Source: Hysterium pulicare CBS 123377
Lineage: Eukaryota; Ascomycota; Dothideomycetes; Hysteriales; Hysteriaceae
Direction: 5' to 3'
DNA: 64,000 bases
NCBI GenBank assembly: GCA_000467715.1
Contig: AJFK01000464.1
Span: 119,475-183,474, forward strand
Below are positions 15,246 through 27,176 of this stretch, one piece after another. A program made the position numbers and the translations under genes. The number at the start of each line of letters is the position of its first letter. Within the stretch, counting starts at the first letter, position 1. The notes beneath the pieces were generated by a model. It searched no databases and had not been told where the DNA came from. It saw only the letters and a program-made list of their open reading frames with translations.

Positions 15246-17281
15246 GGTAAGGGCGTCAAAAGTTTTTGAGCTTATAGGGTAGGCTAGGTTCCTCACAATG
15301 GACGTGTTAAGTCTATGCAAGAGTTCATGTTCTCCAACGTGAGACTGGCTGCTCAGTCGAAATTGAGTCATCTTCCTGACTGAACCCATAGGTAACGCAA
15401 ATCGCTTAAGTCGAGGCAGAGGTGGCTGGGTGCGACTAGGATAGGATGCGAGCGAACGCTGAGTTGGTCCTCAATTCCACCACCACCGAAGCCTCCTCAC
15501 GGAGATGACATTCGCGTTTAGATGTCAAGAACTTGTGCCAATTTCGGACAGAGTGATGGCCGCCATTGGCATACCCAGGCCCTGTGGACGTGTAACGGAA
15601 CATGATCTAGCGGTTGATACGTCAGAAACATTTCCATGGAAACGAGACAACCATAATGAACTCGATCTGGTGAGGTGAGAGCACGCATTGCAGTATGCAA
15701 GTTACTTCAACAGATGCATGTGGAGAAGCAGGCTCATAGCATGCCCTGGGATGTTACGTAGGATGTTTCACGCCCGCAGGATGGTTTACGCCCCGTTCCA
15801 GGCATCATCAGGCTTACATCCATTTCAACTACTGCACCCGCACCAGTCGCCAACTCACATCCACTCCAAAGACCACACTACACTACACACCAGACATTAA
15901 CTTGCATCCATCCAAGCAATCTTCATACAGACGCTGACTTGCAAATTGTGTCGACCGGGTGCTAGAATCTCATATATCACCAAAAAAGATTTGGCATTGG
16001 CCGATGAACCTGGCCCGCAGTAAGCTAATCTTCCATTTTTTCTCGACGTATATGAAGTCGTTCTCGAAATAACCTCAAGCTGTCTCGATCTCTCAAGCTC
16101 GGATGCGTGCCGGGAACCCGAAGCGCCTTCTCTTCATCGGCGAACCCCGTACCTTCCTGCCGTTGAAGCTAAGCAATCATGGCAGTGAGTTGCTCCACCT
16201 GTGAAGTAAGCCTGACAACAAATGATCTCATCTGAGCCTCCGACTCGTAAATTTTCGAAATACTGCGAGTCGAGGATGGGAATAATTGCGGCATGTCAGA
16301 GCGTGGGATCCTGAGAGCCAAACTGATAGGCAGGGTTCGCCTTCGAGGGACATGGAACGTTGGAACTTCTGTCAGCTGGTACCGGTGAAGGTAATGTCGC
16401 GTAGGAGCTGCATCATAGGGCCTATGGCCTGGGAAGGCCAGGATGCGTGAGGCGGGATCTCAGCTTGCGTTCCCTAGTCGACGAATCGAGGTATCTTTGA
16501 CGGGTGCCTCTCTATCCGCGGCTGGCTAATAGATTATCATGTCTACAGCCGCAGCCAGGGCAGCCTTCATGCACTCGGAACCAGAGGCGTGTGTTGGCCC
16601 AGTGCGGGTCAGAGTTTGGTGTGCTTCCGAACCTGAATGTTTCTTCCGTGAGTCTGTTTAGCTGAAGTCAAGCGTCATTGGCCAGCCGCCCGATTTGTTA
16701 TGCATCGTAACTCTTGGCAACCACGACGACTTCGACTGCCGGTAATCTTTCCCTTCGTTGTCGGTGGTGAATTAGCACAACACGCACAAGTTCTTGCCGT
16801 CACTGGGCGCTTATATGCACAACACCCGCCACCCAACTGACTCTTCCTCTAGGGCTCCGCTACCATACAAGTCCTCTAAGATATGCATACGTGATAATGT
16901 ACTAATCCGACGCGGGACTATCGAAGAATTTCCCCCAGCCATGCTCATACAGTGCGCACACCGCTGTAGCCAGCGAAACTGAAAGACCATGATTCGCCCT
17001 GCTTTGTCAAAAGTCACAGGAGCTTGGCCAGCCAGAGTGCAGAAGTAGAATAATAGGATGAGGGCGTTCTCAGCAGATGCAGGAGGGCTTTCGGGCCAAG
17101 GAAGTATAAAAGCCTCCGTCGTGGTGATCGATTCATTCTTTTGCTTGGTTCATCACTCTTCATCTGCCTACACGAAGTATCTCCGTGCTTTCGATTCATT
17201 CTACCTTCTATATCCCAGCCTCTAGCCGACCAGAATTACACAATCTCTCAGTCCGACTGATTACGTCTCTCGAGCCCCATC
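15246..17281. other. Long gene-free region upstream of the first PRDGG gene
   Basis: About 2 kb with GC-rich sequence but no credible exon chain. Its last ~200-370 bp resemble the DNA upstream of the second PRDGG gene (about 24775-25000). A CATAGGGCCTATG palindrome lies at about 16413. The region could be a long promoter, a non-coding transcript or decayed DNA; the sequence alone does not decide. Confidence 0.5.
17068..17112 (+). promoter_or_regulatory. Core promoter with TATA box, conserved with the 24.95 kb copy
   Basis: TCAGCAGATG followed by a GCTTTC block and GTATAAAAG (17104-17112), about 170 bp before the ATG of the small gene. The same order (TCAGCAGATG, ACTTTC, GTATAAG) occurs at 24945-24990 before its paralog, with nearly equal spacing. 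Conservation of spacing supports a promoter role. Confidence 0.6.
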
Positions 17282-17664
17282 ATGGCCTCTTTGATCAAGC
17301 TTGTCTTGCCGGAAGCCCAAAGATGCAATGGTATGTGATGGAGCTTGGTACCATCTTGCCTGACTTCCTCCTTTTATGCCTGTTATGCAAAGACGTAATT
17401 TGCTAACTTATCATAGTCCATCTAGGATCTATGCTTCCTGCCCTTCACGTTGATACATCACCACCTCTTAGGCCCCAGGGCATCGTCTCTTGCCCCGACA
17501 TCATTGACCCAAATTTGTATGACGGAATTGGACCCTTTTCGAGGAACAATGTTGCGCTTTCTTCCGTAGAGCTGTCGATGGCTCGAAGTGATGAGCCTCA
17601 GCCCAGAGACGGATGCGGTCAGCGTAAGCCAGGCATGACGAAGAGCACTATGGCATACGAATAA
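17282..17664 (+). CDS. Small PRDGG-family protein, copy A (98 aa)
   Basis: Two exons, 17282-17330 (49 nt) and 17417-17664, phase-1 intron with GTATGT donor, a TGCTAACT branch site and ATAG acceptor. The 98-residue product has no signal peptide or membrane segment and matches no family I know. Reality is supported by copy B at 25163: both have a 49-nt first exon, LPEAQ at residues 9-14, a NN-hydrophobic block (SRNNVALSS here), and the identical string RSDEPQPRDG followed by (C/G)GQR(K/R)P. Upstream DNA is also related. It lies tail to tail with the HeLo-like/ankyrin gene, 221 bp from its stop codon. The basic, glycine-containing C-terminal block could bind nucleic acid or phosphate groups, but that is speculation. 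Confidence 0.7.
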
Positions 17665-17885
17665 GGCAACAAATCGGCTCTGAACCAAGATGCCACTATG
17701 AAGGACGGTTGGGGTAGAGCAAAGTCGAGAGTTAGTTAGGGGTAAGAGGCACGCTGTAGTTGAGATAGCGGATTGTTGGCTCATCTCTTGTACTTGTAGC
17801 AACAGTATCAGAAGACCAAGTTCTATATCAGCGATGAAATTAATATATTTCAATATTTACCAAGGAAGGTTGATAGACCGATATC

Positions 17886-19895
17886 TTAATCCACCCACGA
17901 ACCGGGCATTGGCCATCGACTTTGACATAAATGCTTTTGCAACTTTCGGGTTTTGGCCTTCTGACGGCGGTTGGAACGCTGGTCTCGTAAGGTTTTTCTT
18001 TTCTGATTTGTCCTGTTGTTGGAGTCCCAGTACATATTTACGTCGACATCCGCGTACGAAAAGGGCCAGCAGACTTCTCCGTCGATTAAATTTTCGCGGT
18101 CCCATCCAATCCCCTTGAATACGCTAGCAATAAGATATCCAGGAAAGGTTGGATTAAGGACCCACTCCCATCCAAGACCCCAGCAACGATCGGTGCTGTA
18201 GCGTACCACGATCCTCTTTTGACGGGCAGGGTGAAAGTTACTGTATTTGACTAATAAGCCCCCTGGATGCGATTGCAACTCGTACTTTAGGTAGGAGTCA
18301 ATGTCAACGGCAGCCAAAGCAAGGGCAGTTAACCATTGCTGACCAATCAGCTCGCTGTCAGCTTCGTCCATGCACCAAAGGAATAGCTCGTCCACTAGAT
18401 CCAAAGATTTCTCTCTACGGAGGCAGGGAATCGCGGAGAGGAGCTTGACAATCAAAGGTATGTGCGACGGGTCTGGCTCTACACTAAATTTTCTCAGAGC
18501 AACCACGAGGAAAAATTCGTTGATTTTCTCGGTCTCGTCCGCACACACGCTTCGTTGCGCGTGACCATGGAGCCATTCTTGAGCGGGGATCGTTCCACGT
18601 AGCCAATTTATGCGGTGGTGTCGGAGTTCGCAAAAATCAAAATTACAGTGACCTCTGTCCAACAAAATACGCATAGTATCGATTTCTCTGCCCTTTGATC
18701 TCGATCCGAAGTAGCCCAGACCCATGTATTCAAGGGGATTACCATAAGTAGGATCATCTTCCGCTTGAACGCCGAGTTGGATAAGAAGTTCGCAAATTTC
18801 TGCTTGACAAAATGCTGCAGCAACCTAGTGCCTTGATTAGTAAAGCAGAGTGTTTCCCGATCTAATATGAGAACTTTACATGAAGTAGAGTCAGCCCGTA
18901 TTCTGTGCGTGTGAATGGATGTATTACACCTGAGTTCAAGCACTGTTGAACTTCAGATACAGTTCCGTGTTCGAAGAGTCCCAAAAGAGAAGAGTTTACA
19001 GATATGATGGGGTATGTTGTTAGCGAAGGCAATATGCTTCCATATGGCCTGCGTACAGCCAACCGTAATCCACGCTTGAATGTCGGTGAAGAGTACAACA
19101 AGATGAAGTCCTCGCAAACTCGTCTCTCGTCTTCACTTTTCAAATACTTGGCAGCTTGCTCACCGAGAGACATAGTTTGCACTATTCTAAAAGCACGTAT
19201 GCTTAACGCATTCAGAGCAGAAGCAACAGGTATTGATCGACGCCGAAATGATACCATCGAAGTTGGATGATATTCACACAAAGAGCTTTGCGTGGAAGTA
19301 CCTAAAACTTCGATCCTACCAATATCGTACCGGGAGTTATTTCCTGGCGGCCATTGCTCTATGTGGCCTGTAGCAAAAGTTGACGGTTTCATATGATGAA
19401 GTCTTGCCTCGCAGTTAGACCGTGATGCAAACTAAATGTTTTGACTTACTGGATTCTTGTGAAGTTCACCGCCAGAGCAGCACTTAATGTCGCGATAGCG
19501 TGCTGGATTCTAGTCTCACAGGCCATCACGTCCTTAGCTTTCAATCCCAGCCTCACAGAAGCCCAAGACTTGAATTTAGATGAGTTGAGAGAACCTTTGT
19601 GCTTGCTGACAAGCTTTTGCAAAGGCAGTAAATGATGCTCGCATTCTCTTAAACAGCCTAGGACCGTGGCAGACGCAGCAGGCACCCATTGAAATGACGC
19701 TTGGTGTGCGAAGAGCTGCCTTATATCGTCGAGAAGTGAACGTAGATTCCCAAGGATCCTAGTAAGTCTTTCAATCTCGGCAGGGGCTCCTTTGACGACT
19801 GTGATGAAATTTCGAACGGAGTCAACAGAGTCGATAAGTTGGATGGATAAGGATAGAACGGCGATGCCACTGGCAGCCGCACTGAAAACGTCCAT
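17886..19895 (-). CDS. HeLo-like N-terminal / ankyrin protein, copy 1
   Basis: Three exons: 19895-19450, 19402-18880, 18824-17886, coding 635 residues. Residues 1-150 (starting MDVFSAAASGIAVLSLSIQL, then VVKGAPAEIERL) resemble the helical N-terminal domain found on fungal STAND/NLR-like and heterokaryon-incompatibility proteins. An ankyrin-like segment follows around residues 290-350 (VIHPFTRTEYGLTLLH joined by splicing to VAAAFCQAEICELLIQLG). The last ~230 residues form a conserved block with KRIVVRYSTDRCWGLGWEW and the end PGSWVD. There is no NACHT or NB-ARC domain. The paralog at 36408 has the same three-exon structure with an identical 523-nt middle exon. Intron 1 uses an AAG acceptor in both. 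HeLo domains can be membrane-active in cell death, but this has not been shown for this architecture. Confidence 0.82.
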
Positions 19896-20360
19896 CTTTA
19901 GGGCTCGAGAATCCTACACCTGTTGGCTGAGTGTGTTCCTCTAGAAAAGAATCTCTTGTAAGATTAGAACAGTGACAGAAAGAATGGGAAACCAGATCTG
20001 CAACATTTTCAAAAGTCTTCCAGCTTCCGGACAAGGCTGAGGATGCCTGGAGAGAATAATGGAGGGGTTCCAGCCACAGAAATGGCGTTCAGCTCCTCTA
20101 CTCAGCCTTGCGCGCCCCCGACCGAAGTTAATACTTTGTCGATTCGGATATTATCCCAAGACGAACTCCTTCCACACATATCTGGATAGCTTTGAATTAT
20201 TGTCCGAATTGAGGGTCGAATTGAAAGGCGATCGTGATCCGAGACGATTTTGCTCCGGCGATCTGGGTGGAGGTCCGATACTAGTTGAGATAACCATCCG
20301 GGTACAAACTCAACTCATGCGCAAACTACATGTCGAGGCGCCTATATTTCGTATTCTAGT
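19896..20360. other. Gene-free stretch
   Basis: About 465 bp between the start of the HeLo-like gene and the 3' end of the ABC pseudogene. No credible coding sequence; it would hold the HeLo-like gene's promoter. Confidence 0.5.
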
Positions 20361-22486
20361 TTAAGTAATAACGGCCTCCCGCGTCACTCTCGACTTATGA
20401 TTATACAAGTCCCTAAACGCACTCGGCCTACTCAATAACGCCTCAGGCGCATCGAATTCCACCAACCTCCCATCCTTACAACGCAATCTTATCGAAATCC
20501 AAAACGGTGTTCAACCTGTGTGCCACCGAGATGATCGTTGCATCGGCAAATTCCTCACGAATGACCCACTGGACCAGCCCATCCGTTGTGACGTCAATGC
20601 TACTCGACACCTCATCTAGAACGACAACTTTGCTCCTGCGAAGAAGTGCCCGCGCCAAGCAAAAAAGCTGTCTTTGACCATGGGAGAAAAAGTCTGCATC
20701 TAAGTCCGCATCCAAACCGCCTTTAGATTCAACGATTGCCCAGAGCTGCACTTTGCGTAGTGCATCAGTGATTTCATCGTCAGTGCGGAGGTTGCTGGGA
20801 GAGGCGTTGAACCGAATGCTGCCTTTCATGAAGAAAGGATCCTGGGGAATGGCGTTGAATCGAGATCGGACTGTCTGTCGAGGAACTTTTGTGATATCGA
20901 CGCCGTCAACGATTATAGAACTACTTGGTGTAACTTCAAGAAGGCGGAAAAGCGTCATGGTTAGAGAGAGAATACACTCGCACAGAGTAAACGTCTAAAG
21001 AGTGTTGATAGTCGCAACTCTTGGACACGAAGCCCTTGCACTATTTCATTGAGTTTGGGGGCGAAACCGAGAACTTTTACAGCCTGATGCGCCACGTCAA
21101 CGCCAGACTAGAAATGTGATTGCGAATTAACTGACTTTCATAGGACCAAGCATTGATGCAGTGACATCGACTCGAGCCTGAATGCCTTCGTTCCATATCT
21201 TTTGGGACCTCTTAATATGATTGGAGATCAACATCACACACCCAGTTGATATTGCAGCTACGGCGGCGGGCGCCAGGGAAGATAACCCGATTTGCCTGTA
21301 CAGCAACCACATTGCTATTCCCAATTCCACCAGCACTCCGCAAAGTTCGTGCCAGTTTGTGAATCCGCCACAGATGGTTTCTACGTCAAGAAAGCTGATT
21401 AGCTCAAATTATCTTGCACGTAGGACATTGGATCGAAAAATGCACACCGGTTTCATTCGACATCAACGTTAAAGCTGCGGATTCGTTGAGAGAAGTGATG
21501 CTCAATTCAATCCTGTTCTGAATTGACAAATTCGACTGTCCGTGAGAGAAGGAAAGGTTGGGTGTATTTGAAAGCGATAAGGCAGAGGCGAGGAAAGATG
21601 CACAATGCCAATTGTCGACGGGTCGATTTCAAGGTGGACCAGAATAGCGCATGAGAACGAGATTTTCTTGCCTTGGACCATGTTCTTTGCGCCCGGCTTC
21701 TCAGTACCCGCGAACTCATGCTTTTTTCTATCGGGTACAAATCGTCCTTGCGAATGATTCGGCAGAAGCCAATAGTCAGCAGCGAGTTCAACCACCAAAA
21801 GAATGCACGAGAATATGGCCCACTGGTGGCCTCCGGACTCTCATCTCTATATCCAGTCAGGAGAATCATGCGCGTCTCTGTCGCCTCCAGAATAGTAGTT
21901 ATTAATTCTAGAGCAACCATGACGGTAAATACAGCAGCAATTGATCTAGGGGCTCCTTCGACCCAGAGTATTCTCACGTGAGCGATATCAAAAAGGAGGG
22001 TAATGAATAGATATACGTTAATCAAGGTCGAAGGTCGGATGGAGCGAACATGCTCTGCATGTGAGAGAAGGCGCAATGCAACTGCATCGGCGAGAATGAG
22101 CGCCGCAGCAGCCAACGAGGTGGCGTTCTGACAGTGGGATTTGTAGCATAGATACCAAGATAGCCGCCTGGAAAAGAGTGAAAAGAGCCAGAAAACCCAA
22201 TTTTTTGCCATGAAGCAGACTGCGATACTTTTTTCGAGCGTACAAGCAACGATCGTAAGCGGAAGGGGAGAAGTAGAAGTAAAACAGAAGATGGCACAAT
22301 GGAAAGAATGGTAAACTCGAATTGAGGGCTGAAGTCAAAATGGTCCGACAGCATCGGCCCAAAATGTATGAGGCCTTGCTCGAATGCTGTCAAATTTGAG
22401 TCCATCATTGTTGTTGACGGATGAAGCAAATGGCGACGTGAGATGAAAGTTACGTCCGCCTGAAAGACGCGAAGATCGGAGCTCAA
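20361..22486 (-). pseudogene. Collapsed ABC-C (MRP-type) transporter
   Basis: Reading from 22486 downward, pieces of one full-size ABC-C exporter appear in order but in different frames. These are the N-terminal membrane domain (FTILSIVPSSVLLLLLPFRL, then KLGFLALFTLFQAAILV in a second frame, then LADAVALRLLSHAEHVRS in a third), part of the first transmembrane domain (to about VKVLGFAPKLNEIVQGLRV), then directly the second nucleotide-binding domain from just after Walker A (SLTMTLFRLLEV). The latter includes the signature FSHGQRQLFCLARALL, Walker B VVVLDEVSSSID and the H-loop VAHRL. The tail LVEFDAPEALLSRPSAFRDL is again frame-shifted. By family comparison roughly 800 residues (rest of TMD1, NBD1, TMD2) are gone, with a junction near 20970. 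The locus cannot make a transporter. Confidence 0.88.
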
Positions 22487-25162
22487 AGCTCGTCATCCAC
22501 AGAGAGAATGACTCATATGAACGTCGACTTGGTATATGCATTCTTCACCTTTCACGTAGAAACCATTGCTACGGGGTTTATTCCTCAGAATATTCAATGT
22601 TACTCTAGAAAATCTGATGAACCTTGGAAGTGAGTAGTTGACTTTGAAGAAGAGAAGGATGTCGATTCAGGGGGACGTGAGGGGTACATACGAGGCTAGA
22701 ATAACCGAGGCACGCCAAGCTACTCCTAACAAATTCTATCATCACATCTCTTCAACATCACATGGCTTCGAAGTCTATATAACTCTCCTAAATCAAGCAT
22801 GTCTTTGAGTATTATTGAGTCAGCAGAATGCTCGTTGACCGGATAGGCACCCGCAAAGATGCTCCTACCAACCCTAAGCACCATCCCAGTGCGTCCTTTT
22901 CAAAAGTCTTCAACTTCACGATAATCAATCTTACTAAAAGCAGTAAACCAAACTTCGATATTGTTCTTACAAAGTCAATGAGAGCATAGGTTGAAGACAA
23001 CAACTAGCCTCATCTCTTAGTGGATTTGCTCTAATAAGCGACAGTCAACCTGAGCTTGGATAGGTCTCATATTTTTAGATTCGAGAAGACGAGGGTCATT
23101 CTTTTACGATGACGCGAAGAAGCACGAGCTACTGAGAGACCAGGAGCCGTATTGGTACTTGGTTGCAATTGGGTAAATTGCGGGCGGACGATGATTTGGT
23201 CGCTATTCTATCTTATCAAAGTCTCTCCACGGAAAAAAACATGACCCTACTAAAACCCTAAGTAAGGGTCACCTTCAAGCTGAACCGATTTCTTGATATT
23301 TCGTAAAGTACCTCAAATCATTCAATGTTTCTCAAGTTATCTCAATCTTACATACGGGTGGGACAGTCAAAATACCACAGAAGTCCGTAAGCACCTCAGG
23401 GGTGACATGTCTGCGTCAGATATGCAGATCTTGGCTGCGGCCATGGGAGCGCTTTCTTGGCATCCAAGATCCCGACCACGGACAGGACTAGAGAGTAGGC
23501 GGCGCGGGAGGAGCGTTTTGTAGATTGCTTCCACGAAGTTGCCTGTGGCGTCAGAGAGTTAAGCATCAGCAGCCATCACGAAAGGTTAGTGAAGCTGTGC
23601 AGGGGTTGCAAGTGACTCTCGTTGAGGTCGGCTAGTTGGTGTACGTACTTTACTGGTAGGGATTGCTTCGGATGCTGTACTCTAGACTGTTCTGCTGCAG
23701 CTCGCAAGAGGCCGCCGTGGACGATGCATGACAGACGTTCCTCCTCGTAGGGGGACGCTAAGGGGAGTTAGTGCCGAATCCATTGCTGGATACAGGCGTG
23801 TGCATAGGGCCTCTCAGCAACCGCGATACCGTCCACGAGCCTTCAACAACGCCCCGAGAATGCACGGAGTTTTGGCTCGGCCGTTAGAGGAGCTGTGGCG
23901 GGGTGTAGATTGCTGCCAATCTTGGATACATAGGGCGGAGCGGCCAACCGCCGAACCTTGACGAGTGATCGCATGCGTCACGCTGTGGGGAATTTGCAGT
24001 TAATCAGCCGGAGAATGTCGCTGGCAGCATAGGTATTGCATAGGGCGAAGATCGAGTGGGCGTGGACGCGTGGATGCAGGCCCATGATGAGCGCTGCACA
24101 GCGCCGCCATTTTGCTTCTTCAAAGAGGCCGTAAACTTGGCATCGCGCTAAATTACGGGATTACCGCCAAAACTCAGCAGGAGGATTGGGCTGGTGACTG
24201 GCCGGTACCTGAAGGAGTGAATCCGTGCTCCTAATATGCAGATGACGGCAACCTCACCCATGCCAGAGGATGGCTATTTCCACATCGAAAGTGCGGATGC
24301 AATAGCCGCTCACTAACATCAGGCAAGTTGTTGTTTTGGGTAGGTCTCCCGACTTTGAGTGAGTGAGGTTGCTGCCAAGCGTCGGCCATTGTGACCCGCC
24401 AGCCGTATGCACAGTACCACAAACCCCCCATCAGCATGTCGGTGAGCATGGCACCTCTTCGCAAGTCCGGCGTCGTTGCTGCGATAGTCTAGCGTGTCCC
24501 GAAGACTTGGGCGCATGTTCTTCTATTGGGCTTTAGCATCGCCACGCTGCGATCTGCTGCATACCACGGTCGGTTATGCAGCTTTAAGGTGGACCTTTTG
24601 CAGCATAGACGCGCAGTTCAGGTGCTTCCTCGCGTCTAACGGCGTCTAAACAGGTCAGTCATAGCGTGGGGCATATGCAGTCAGCTTCACCCGGCCCGAC
24701 GACGGGGGTAAACGGGTAAAAGATCATTGCATCCCAACCGGCTTGCCGCCAGCCAACTGCTGCCATAAACGCCTCCTAGCTCGTGGCGTTCCGCAGATAT
24801 CGAAACTATTCCCTGGTCATGTTGTTTTGGATCGCACACCGGTACAGCCAGGGGTGTTGAATGGATATGATTCGCTCTTCTATACGGTATGTCGTTGCCG
24901 TTGCCCAAATGTTCGGGGAAAAAAGAATATCAGGATCAAGGCATTTTCAGCAGATGAGGGATGACTTTCTAGCTCAAAAGAGGTATAAGTGGTTAGCCGT
25001 GGCAATAGACACACATTCTCTGATATCTTTCAACCCATCTTTTGCCGTCTCTCAAGAAGCATCCCATACTTCCAAGTCAACCTGTCGCAGTATCCTCACT
25101 CTGCAGCCAATCAGGTCTAAGCGATCTTCCCTTCCAACCAATCACGTATATTCACTACCAAA
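22487..25162. other. Long gene-free region upstream of the second PRDGG gene
   Basis: About 2.7 kb. The first part is AT-richer; about 23400-24950 is GC-richer, with several copies of CATAGGGC (about 23806, 23932, 24045). The final stretch from about 24775 aligns with DNA upstream of copy A. No exon chain or transposon domain is visible. It may be a long regulatory region, a non-coding transcript, or remnants. Confidence 0.5.
24945..24990 (+). promoter_or_regulatory. Core promoter with TATA-like box, conserved with the 17.07 kb copy
   Basis: TTTCAGCAGATG, then ATGACTTTCT, then AGGTATAAG, about 175 bp before ATG 25163. Motif order and spacing match the region before copy A. Confidence 0.6.
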
Positions 25163-25548
25163 ATGGTTCCTCACACCAGCTTTGCCTTGCCAGAGGCTCA
25201 AGAATACAAAAGTACGTAGTCCCGTCATAACTTTACGTCTTTAACGCGATACGTCCCCGGAAACAAGATAGTTGCTGACGAGTTTTATTGCCTCCAGAGC
25301 CCATCCTTCCCGTTGTCGACGCCGATGCATTACCCCCTATTCGAAATAGCTCATTCAGCTTCTATCCCAAGAGCTTGCATGATCCGTTAAACAATGTTCA
25401 AAATGTAATGCTAGGAAACAATGCGCTGCTTCTCCACCCGATGGTGAGGATGAACCGAAGTGATGAGCCACAACCCAGAGATGGAGGGGGTCAACGAAGG
25501 CCACAGAGGATAAACAACACTGCGGGATCAAAGTTCGGTGGGCAGTGA
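25163..25548 (+). CDS. Small PRDGG-family protein, copy B (99 aa)
   Basis: Exons 25163-25211 (49 nt) and 25298-25548 with a phase-1 intron, coding 99 residues. First-exon length, intron phase, LPEAQ and the RSDEPQPRDG block are shared with copy A. Here the block reads PRDGGGQRRPQR and is followed by a Gly/Asn-rich tail ending FGGQ. Residues 17-60 differ greatly from copy A, so the ends are conserved and the middle is free to vary. No signal peptide, membrane segment or known domain. A CAACCAATCAC element lies 18-28 bp before the ATG, and another such element precedes copy C at a similar distance. Confidence 0.7.
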
Positions 25549-26738
25549 TCTGTGAGGAATGCCATCATGGGATGTGGTGGACATAACCAAAGACAAGACC
25601 TTTCAATAAGTCTTTTCGGGTCGATCGAGCTAGCGAAAGCTGCTATGAAGACATGGAGATGGCGAAATCTTTGCACACATCAATACAAGATGATGCCTCA
25701 TGTTATATAGTATATACTTTTCACGCTGGATGGATTATGAGTGATCTTAATCATACTAGAATAAAAGTAAATTTAACCATCAAATCGACTCCTACGCCGA
25801 CTATGAATGTATGAATCACGATCTTGCTGAACTAAAGGATACCATCCTTACAAACAAGGCATCGCTTTATAAGTTTTTCACGTCATGCTTAATTTGCGCA
25901 GTCCAGAAAATTCGTTGGTGGGCACTGCACCCAACTTTCCAAGCTGAAACGGAGCAAGCGGCCTCCCAACTACAAACTAACAATTACCCCTTTCAACTCA
26001 CCGAAAGCACAGCCAAACAGCCTCTAAGCATGGCAGTGAAAAGATCATCTGCGACAAGCTTAACCAGAATCCTTCCAGTCCACCAGGCCACAAATTCAGC
26101 CTCAAGCACCTATATCCTCGGCCGATCTTCCGCGTACATAGTTACATCCCCGTCCCAGCTGAAGAACAAGTCACAGGCACCAATATGCCCTCTCCCCAAA
26201 GCCCCAAGCAGGCGATCGGATACAAGCGCACGTGCATCCAGTGAAAGGGTGCTTAAGCCGCTTCGACGTAAGAATAGGGCGCGAGCCTGCAAGGCATCCC
26301 CCCGGGCCAACCAATCACATCGACCCCTGACATCCGACGAGGCTGAAATGTAGTACCTAAGGCTGGCGAACATGGGTTTCTACAAAATTACAAAGGGTGC
26401 AATCGGGCAATAGTAGTTTTGCGAGTTTCGAGATCGGGCGAAATACTCTTCGTATCATGGTTCTCAAATGATCGGTTTCGTGGCAAGGGAGGGGGAGGAC
26501 AGGAGGCCGCTGGCGCGCGACCGCAGCAGTTGAGCAGGTTTGGGGGGAGGATAAATAGGTTTCTGTTTGCTCGTGGAGGACTTGGTTTTTCTTGTTATTC
26601 ATTCTTCTTTGCTTCTGTGAAGTTTGTAGAACGTCTGTTTACTTCGTGAACGGGTTCTGATCGGCCGATATTTCTAAGCATTTCAACCAATCACAGCATT
26701 GCACTTGTGTGCTCGCCAACCAATCACATTTCAGTACG
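25549..26738. other. Spacer between PRDGG copies B and C
   Basis: About 1.2 kb. It includes a 108-codon basic frame from ATG 26030 to 26353 that I do not recognise and do not call with confidence. An identical 15-mer (GCCAACCAATCACAT) occurs at 26306-26320 and again at 26715-26729, just before copy C. The 3' half is purine-rich around 26480-26520. Confidence 0.45.
26684..26729 (+). promoter_or_regulatory. Paired CAACCAATCAC (CCAAT) elements before copy C
   Basis: Two CAACCAATCAC copies, at about 26684 and 26717. The same 11-mer occurs at 26308 and, before copy B, at 25135. CCAAT is the core bound by the fungal HAP/CBC complex. Four copies of an extended 11-mer within 1.6 kb near two related genes suggest shared regulation. 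Confidence 0.5.
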
Positions 26739-27176
26739 ATGTTTTCCGACAATTTTGTTCGTGATAATATGGATGCGTATAAAGGTACTGTTTTCGACGT
26801 TTGTTTGAAGTGAATACAACATTAATAAACTACATCTCTAGCTCTTGCCTCGGTTGCAGTAAACAATTACGACCCAATCTTCCCTGCAACACCTCCGTTA
26901 GAGCCACAAGCTGGTAGATACGCCTCCCAATCACGAAACAACGTCGTAGTCTTTCGCCACAAGCGGAAGAGAACCGGTAATGAGGAGCATGACGACGAAG
27001 TCAGCTGTCCAAGAAATTGTGGGCGTAAGCAACGTATTACAGCTGGCAATAAGAACGATGATGGCGGGCACTGGGGACCAAGAGACGGTGGAAGAAGACC
27101 ACGTCATAAGCGGATGACTGGCGAGGAGGAAGATGACGATAAATCTGGAACTCCGAGAGATGGTGGACGACGTTAG
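26739..27176 (+). CDS. PRDGG-family protein, copy C, with repeated motif (126 aa)
   Basis: Exons 26739-26784 (46 nt) and 26842-27176 with a phase-1 intron, coding 126 residues. The exon junction (AYK|AL) lines up with EYK|KP of copy B, and SRNNVVVF (residues 46-53) with SRNNVALS of copy A. The C-terminal half has three imperfect units of about 24 residues. Each runs from basic (RHKR) through TGN/TGE and an acidic stretch to a P-R-(D/N)-(G/C)-G-R block, centred at residues 72, 95 and 120; the protein ends with the last PRDGGRR. No signal peptide, so the many dibasic sites are unlikely to be secretory-pathway cleavage sites. A low-complexity, charge-patterned protein; function unknown. It is convergent with the biotin ligase gene, 249 bp away. 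Confidence 0.65.

Follow-up and report, generated by a model that had tools for sequence, protein, structure and literature searches.

Small PRDGG-block proteins of Hysterium pulicare: a probable paralogous gene family with partly matching promoter and leader signals

Three small two-exon genes in the window

We analyzed a 64-kb stretch of the Hysterium pulicare CBS 123377 genome (contig AJFK01000464.1; C355:119475-183474 in our contig labels), hereafter called the window, which carries three small genes, A, B and C, whose predicted proteins share a short block of the type PRDGG. Window positions are used for these three genes, and a fourth gene, D, and other carriers of the motif are given by genome contig label (C353, C14, C94 and so on). 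All genome searches cover 37.2 Mb in 596 contigs. The original prediction had read A, B and C as a tiny first exon of 49, 49 and 46 nucleotides (nt), a phase-1 intron and a longer second exon, and these coordinates and exon structures were confirmed, with a revised start of the second exon in A. The gene models are as follows.

17282..17330, forward strand: A exon 1, 49 nt, MASLIKLVLPEAQRCN plus 1 nt, with LPEAQ common to A and B
17331..17425, forward strand: A intron, GT-AG, phase 1, preferred acceptor AG 17424-17425
17426..17664, forward strand: A exon 2, 239 nt, with the RSDEPQPRDGCGQRKP block and the stop codon at 17662-17664
25163..25211, forward strand: B exon 1, 49 nt, MVPHTSFALPEAQEYK plus 1 nt
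25212..25297, forward strand: B intron, 86 nt, phase 1, GT-AG
25298..25548, forward strand: B exon 2, 251 nt, with the RSDEPQPRDGGGQRRP block and the stop codon
26739..26784, forward strand: C exon 1, 46 nt, MFSDNFVRDNMDAYK plus 1 nt
26785..26841, forward strand: C intron, 57 nt, phase 1, GT-AG, donor GTACTG
26842..27176, forward strand: C exon 2, 335 nt, with PRNCGR, PRDGGR, PRDGGR and the stop codon

The second exon of A is present and in the phase claimed for it, but a start at 17417, giving 248 nt, is not the preferred one. Two acceptors are in frame. AG 17415-17416 opens the exon at 17417, and AG 17424-17425 opens it at 17426 and yields a product of 95 amino acids (aa), to which the first acceptor adds three residues. 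The second acceptor is preferred because it gives an alignment of A and B without gaps across 95 codons, and because it places a branch-like CTAAC at -23 from the intron end, the same distance as in B. The usual donor consensus is GTANGT, which the donor of C fits less well. Reading through the intron meets stop codons in B and C. The three blocks of the form P-R-(D/N)-(G/C)-G-R earlier noticed in C are all there, as two PRDGGR plus PRNCGR, and the distance between its two PRDGG is 25 codons. In all four genes the first exon, of 46-61 nt (49, 49, 46 and 61 in A, B, C and D), has a length of 1 mod 3 and is followed by a phase-1 intron. When codon usage was compared among the three frames, the annotated frame was the best for A, B, C and D, with a small margin for D.

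A fourth paralog and similarity among the proteins

A whole-genome search with B as the query recovered a fourth gene, D (E-value (E) 0.0013), and the reciprocal search with D returned A (2.7e-4) and B (2.8e-4).

Contig C353, ATG at 197128, reverse strand: D, 61-nt exon 1, 68-nt phase-1 intron, block GSDETQPRDGGGQNKPK, 128-aa product

D lies on another contig than the other three genes and has their intron phase, plus GSDETQPRDGGGQ. The protein alignment of A and B scored 133, whereas shuffles averaged 26.9 and none of 2000 was as good. The alignments of A with D and of B with D gave the same result (0 of 2000 for each pair), which rules out chance sharing of the motif among A, B and D. Judged by their sequences, A and B are clear paralogs. 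The kept block reads S-D-E-P/T-Q-P-R-D-G-G/C-G-Q-x-K/R-P in A, B and D and PRDGGRRP in C. Its core, PRDG(G/C), sits in the C-terminal half of every protein, twice in C, and behind the block all four have basic residues and a proline.

The protein of C stands apart from this set. In comparisons with A, B and D, 335, 149 and 277 of 2000 shuffles reached its score, which is within chance, and a genome search with the C protein recovered C itself and nothing else. This speaks against the earlier assignment of C to the family on protein likeness alone. We retain C as a member because of its promoter and leader features, which are independent of the protein motif and provide the best argument for its membership.

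Selection and age of the A/B duplication

Across the 95 gapless codons of A and B, the proportion of synonymous differences (pS) was 0.63 and that of nonsynonymous differences (pN) was 0.42 (one-sided Fisher test on rounded counts, p 0.002). The 13-codon block showed values of 0.63 and 0.08 (one-sided Fisher, p 0.009), and the codons outside the 18-codon block showed values of 0.65 and 0.48 (one-sided Fisher, p 0.017); as the block was chosen because it is conserved, the comparison over the whole gene is the fair test. The introns of A and B showed no similarity (141 of 500 shuffles as good), nor did their 3' flanks (304 of 500). Since both are no more alike than shuffles, the duplication looks old, with the coding sequence and the core promoter alone having been kept.

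The claim of a real, old and maintained family thus gains support from the paralog D, from the shared promoter and leader features, from pS above pN and from the lost similarity of the A/B introns and 3' flanks. The family, which has no counterpart in the libraries searched, probably consists of old genes that still work. Through the drift these have kept one short motif, a single intron phase and control signals that match in part. That the gene models are spurious, being chance open frames round a shared non-coding element, is highly improbable. The shortness of the proteins would fit such an explanation. Against it stand the consistent intron phase, the retention of the motif via different codons and the location of D on another contig, and it was rejected on codon usage, on pS above pN and on the unconserved introns and 3' flanks of A and B.

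Core promoters of A, B and C

Each of the three window genes is preceded by a candidate core promoter, with distances counted from the ATG.

17071..17112, forward strand: A core promoter, CAGCAGATG at 17071 (-211) and TATAAAAG at 17105 (-177)
24948..24991, forward strand: B core promoter, CAGCAGATG at 24948 (-215) and TATAAGTG at 24984 (-179)
26524..26557, forward strand: C core promoter, CAGCAGTTG at 26524 (-215) and GATAAATA at 26550 (-189)

The promoters of A and B are homologous, with 65 nt aligned up to the TATA box at a score of 46, which none of 200 dinucleotide shuffles matched. The layout common to A, B and C has CAGCAG at -211, -215 and -215, followed by a TATA-type box at -177, -179 and -189. 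Counting both strands, the window has 2416 ATGs with enough upstream sequence, and the two elements occur together before three of them, exactly A, B and C, against 0.28 expected, at distances that were fixed after these genes had been inspected. Singly, CAGCAG at -220..-200 precedes 17 of these ATGs and a TATA-type box at -195..-168 precedes 40. When upstream regions of 700 nt were compared, 3 of 200 shuffles were as good for B and D and 5 of 200 for B and C, and both results reflect the CCAATCA stretch described below. A search of the DNA with the B promoter as query returned nothing but itself.

Tandem CCAATCA boxes in the leaders

The sequence RRCCAATCA is a site of the CCAAT-binding factor NF-Y. 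Two such boxes stand on the same strand directly ahead of the start codon in B, C and D.

25105..25144, forward strand: B leader boxes RRCCAATCA, CCAATCA at 25107 (-56) and 25138 (-25), 31 nt apart
26685..26726, forward strand: C leader boxes RRCCAATCA, CCAATCA at 26687 (-52) and 26720 (-19), 33 nt apart

In the D leader the RRCCAATCA boxes lie at -55 and -23, 32 nt apart, and in all three genes the pair ends 12-18 nt ahead of the ATG. The window holds 15 CCAATCA on both strands taken together, and nowhere but in the leaders of B and C do two of them stand on one strand within 100 nt. Genome-wide, the pattern CCAATCA-N19..31-CCAATCA was found in 15 pairs, compared with 5 in the reversed control, and three of the 15 are the B, C and D leaders. 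A spacing of 31-33 nt was observed in 8 of the 15 pairs (binomial p 0.011) and in 5 of the 12 outside the family (on contigs C164, C379, C426, C556 and C572; binomial p 0.12). These five could reflect a general rule for CCAAT dimers or, possibly, further co-regulated genes. An ATG 10-20 nt past the second box gave eight matches for seven pairs (B, C, D, C164, C446, C556 and C565) and none in the control. Four of the 12 outside pairs thus have such an ATG, where about two would be found by chance (an estimate from 11 positions in 64), which is no strong excess. The pairs on C164 and C556 combine spacings of 33 and 31 nt with an ATG 17 and 11 nt after the second box.

NF-Y promoters with tandem CCAAT boxes at a distance of 31 bp have been described, and among the human promoters to which c-Fos and NF-Y bind the spacing has its main peak at 31 bp, according to the portions of the source drawn on here (PMC4982600). 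The boxes of B, C and D resemble the tandem promoters of NF-Y/HAP, as far as these are covered by the same portions and by parts of a second paper (PMC4982600; PMC9241503), in being direct repeats on one strand with spacings of 31, 33 and 32 nt. They differ in the short distance of 12-18 nt from the end of the pair to the ATG and, in B and C, in a position downstream of the TATA-type box. A strict search of the open-access literature returned nothing on such box spacing or on fungal CCAAT boxes in leaders, and looser wording did match.

The position of the pair, 19-56 nt ahead of the ATG, fits doubtfully with such promoters and raises the main rival explanation, in which the family is real and the boxes act as an element of the 5' untranslated RNA, as a target for a protein or with a role in translation, and not as a DNA site of a CCAAT complex. 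We consider this possible, if on the unlikely side. All six boxes are on the sense strand, those of B and C lie between the TATA-type box and the ATG, and no upstream ATG was found within 150 nt before the start in any of A to D, as would be the case for a scanned leader. However, the boxes match RRCCAATCA, their spacing of 31-33 nt is near the 31 bp of NF-Y dimers in the portions cited (PMC4982600), and the 8 of 15 genome pairs at that spacing, with the weaker excess outside the family, hint at a rule set by the turns of the DNA helix.

Other carriers of the motif in the genome

The QPRDG pattern was found at 39 sites in the genome versus 22 in the control, and the PRDGG pattern at 65 versus 52. 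Both patterns let Ser codons through as well; the surrounding letters were examined at 46 of the 65 PRDGG sites, and among the remaining 19 there is Ser instead of Arg in four. A 27-base block with up to three mismatches gave 53 sites versus 29. These bare-motif counts are only modestly above the control and do not on their own establish a larger family; the wider set is a lead and no more. The weak matches of D on C4 (E 0.11) and C51 (E 1.97) have no listed PRDGG.

PRDGG followed by TRR occurred six times versus three in the control. At the site on C40 the codon is TGG (Trp), which leaves five true C-termini, on C14, C23, C42, C94 and C171. The frames on C23 and C171 are very short (28 and 16 codons), and their motif occurrences are probably due to chance. 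One of these carriers, a 47-aa frame at C14:57508-57648, has DPQPRDGG at its C-terminus and once more 25 codons before it. Its repeats differ by five synonymous and no nonsynonymous changes (p 0.0001), and the spacing of 25 codons between PRDGG units is common to this protein and that of C. Through the motif it is linked to A, B and D, whose alignments with it were equalled by 0, 0 and 2 of 2000 shuffles. A genome search with the C14 protein recovered C14 itself alone, and no Pfam family matched it above the cut-off.

C94 (L060:1105-1518, forward strand) carries a 137-aa frame ending SPHPRDGG, linked to the family by PRDGG alone. It has a TATATATT box at -170, and its best Pfam match, Myelin_MBP (E 0.029), is below the cut-off of that family. 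C42 (L082:4349-5845, reverse strand) carries a 498-aa frame with Cys/His clusters that ends EADPQPRDGG. No Pfam family matched it at E<=0.1, and although it runs for 503 codons from stop to stop, codon usage gives it no support. The leaders of C14 and C94 lack a CCAATCA pair, and 5 of 200 shuffles were as good as the alignment of their upstream regions.

Searches for known families and the function of the block

A to D matched none of the Pfam families at E<=10, AT_hook included, in a search whose HMMER filters can lose weak short matches; a known domain was rejected on this result. No strongly hydrophobic stretch was found in the four proteins (maximum 19-residue Kyte-Doolittle mean 0.32-0.61), nor any signal-peptide-like stretch (highest 11-residue mean near the N-terminus 0.31-1.27), as judged from hydropathy alone. 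On that measure they differ from secreted small proteins or effectors, which carry an N-terminal signal peptide. The original prediction had described A, B and C as without known domain, signal peptide or membrane helix, in agreement with these results. It had also called the family unrecognised, which stands for Pfam, the sequences of the PDB and the open-access papers searched, and the claim reaches no further than those libraries. The best PDB match had E 0.11 with B alone and 1.9 with a profile, and no credible relation was seen. Relatives among prokaryotic or viral contigs were rejected as well, since of 60 and 262 stretches fitting the pattern none was confirmed, as was to be expected. 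The strings QPRDGG, EPQPRDG, DPQPRDGG, PRDGGGQ and PRDGGRR were in no paper of the open-access literature searched, and PRDGG, QPRDG and DGGGQ were present in papers with unrelated titles only (judged by title). A general search of the same literature for small disordered fungal protein families gave no match.

The core of an AT-hook is P-R-G-R-P, with Arg-Pro in a basic stretch. The PRDGG proteins are similar in having Arg-Pro in a basic stretch beside Gly, but their own core, P-R-D-G-G, includes an acidic residue. An AT-hook-like or RG-type contact between nucleic acid and the basic stretch behind PRDGG (GQRRPQR, GQNKPKRAK, GGRRPRHKR), in place of protein docking, is unlikely. The basic residues and proline behind the block in A to D and the net charge of D, +15, would be in line with it, whereas the lack of any Pfam match up to E 10, within the limits of the filters just mentioned, and the proteins of C14 and C94, in which nothing follows PRDGG, speak against it.

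We consider it very unlikely that the A to D proteins are precursors of short peptides excised around repeated PRDGG units. The units 25 codons apart in both C and the C14 protein, and the dibasic sites flanking those of C, would suit such processing, but A, B and D have a single unit each, and proteins with no signal-peptide-like stretch should not meet the secretory proteases.

Small disordered proteins with a short linear motif are a general kind, and the family resembles them in its kept short block, its drifting background and its several paralogs. It is set apart by a block described in no paper searched and by the lack of a Pfam or credible PDB match. The charge-hydropathy index places C (-0.24) and D (-0.22) as clearly disordered.

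A tentative model of the family

Taken as a whole, the reading that we favour is that A to D form a small paralogous family of block-docking proteins under CCAAT-box control; we hold it tentatively, with somewhat less than even confidence. The proteins would be small cytosolic or nuclear factors, for the most part unstructured, which offer the PRDGG block to one common partner for docking, with the variable remainder of the protein acting as a tether. This picture of a tethered docking peptide is drawn from the lack of a known domain and of a strongly hydrophobic stretch, together with a short kept block on a drifting background. Transcription of A, B and C would be driven by the TATA-type box about 180 nt upstream, and the pair of CCAAT boxes, some three turns of the helix apart, would be a site for a CCAAT-binding complex of the HAP/NF-Y type. 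B, C and D may then answer one and the same signal, the pair having been lost from A or never having been there.

Several results weigh against this model. The A leader contains no CCAATCA pair, and the region upstream of D lacks the CAGCAG/TATA layout, which was itself defined on genes already inspected. Among the 700-nt upstream regions, those of A and D (160 of 200 shuffles as good), C and D (23 of 200) and A and C (10 of 200) are alike at or near the level of chance, as is the protein of C to the other three. The differences between A and B number 41, 41 and 51 of 95 at the three codon positions, a weak excess at the third over the first two (p 0.06). By the charge-hydropathy index B is borderline (0.00) and A falls on the folded side (0.13-0.15).

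A broader version of the docking model is doubtful. In it, PRDGG would be an undescribed fungal docking motif shared by a whole set of proteins, internal in A to D and C-terminal in C14, C94 and possibly C42, with one common partner, and B, C and D, perhaps with the genes behind the pairs on C164 and C556, would form a regulon of CCAAT pairs in the leader, three helical turns apart. If the favoured model is correct, fungal biology would gain an undescribed family of small proteins with a testable motif, and also a leader arrangement, with the tandem CCAAT boxes immediately ahead of the start codon, that could be used for finding co-regulated genes. Gene annotation easily misses small single-motif proteins of this sort.

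Neighbourhood of the genes in the window

Ahead of B, at 22900-24900, lies a long upstream region of about 2 kb without frames of at least 150 aa, which is partly GC-rich (0.51-0.54 at 23001-25000). Between B and C, a 180-aa frame is present at 25811-26353 on the forward strand; its best Pfam match, GOST_TM (E 0.051), is below the cut-off of that family and probably due to chance. Structured RNA in the window was considered and set aside, with no Rfam match at gathering scores. On the reverse strand at 20476-22486 there is part of an ABC transporter ATPase (Pfam E 6e-11), with unmatched frames upstream, which looks fragmentary through introns or decay. Elsewhere in the window, and in keeping with a fungal genome, Pfam matches include a P450, Mgm101, a biotin ligase, an MFS protein and a homoserine dehydrogenase, and spliced genes are present.

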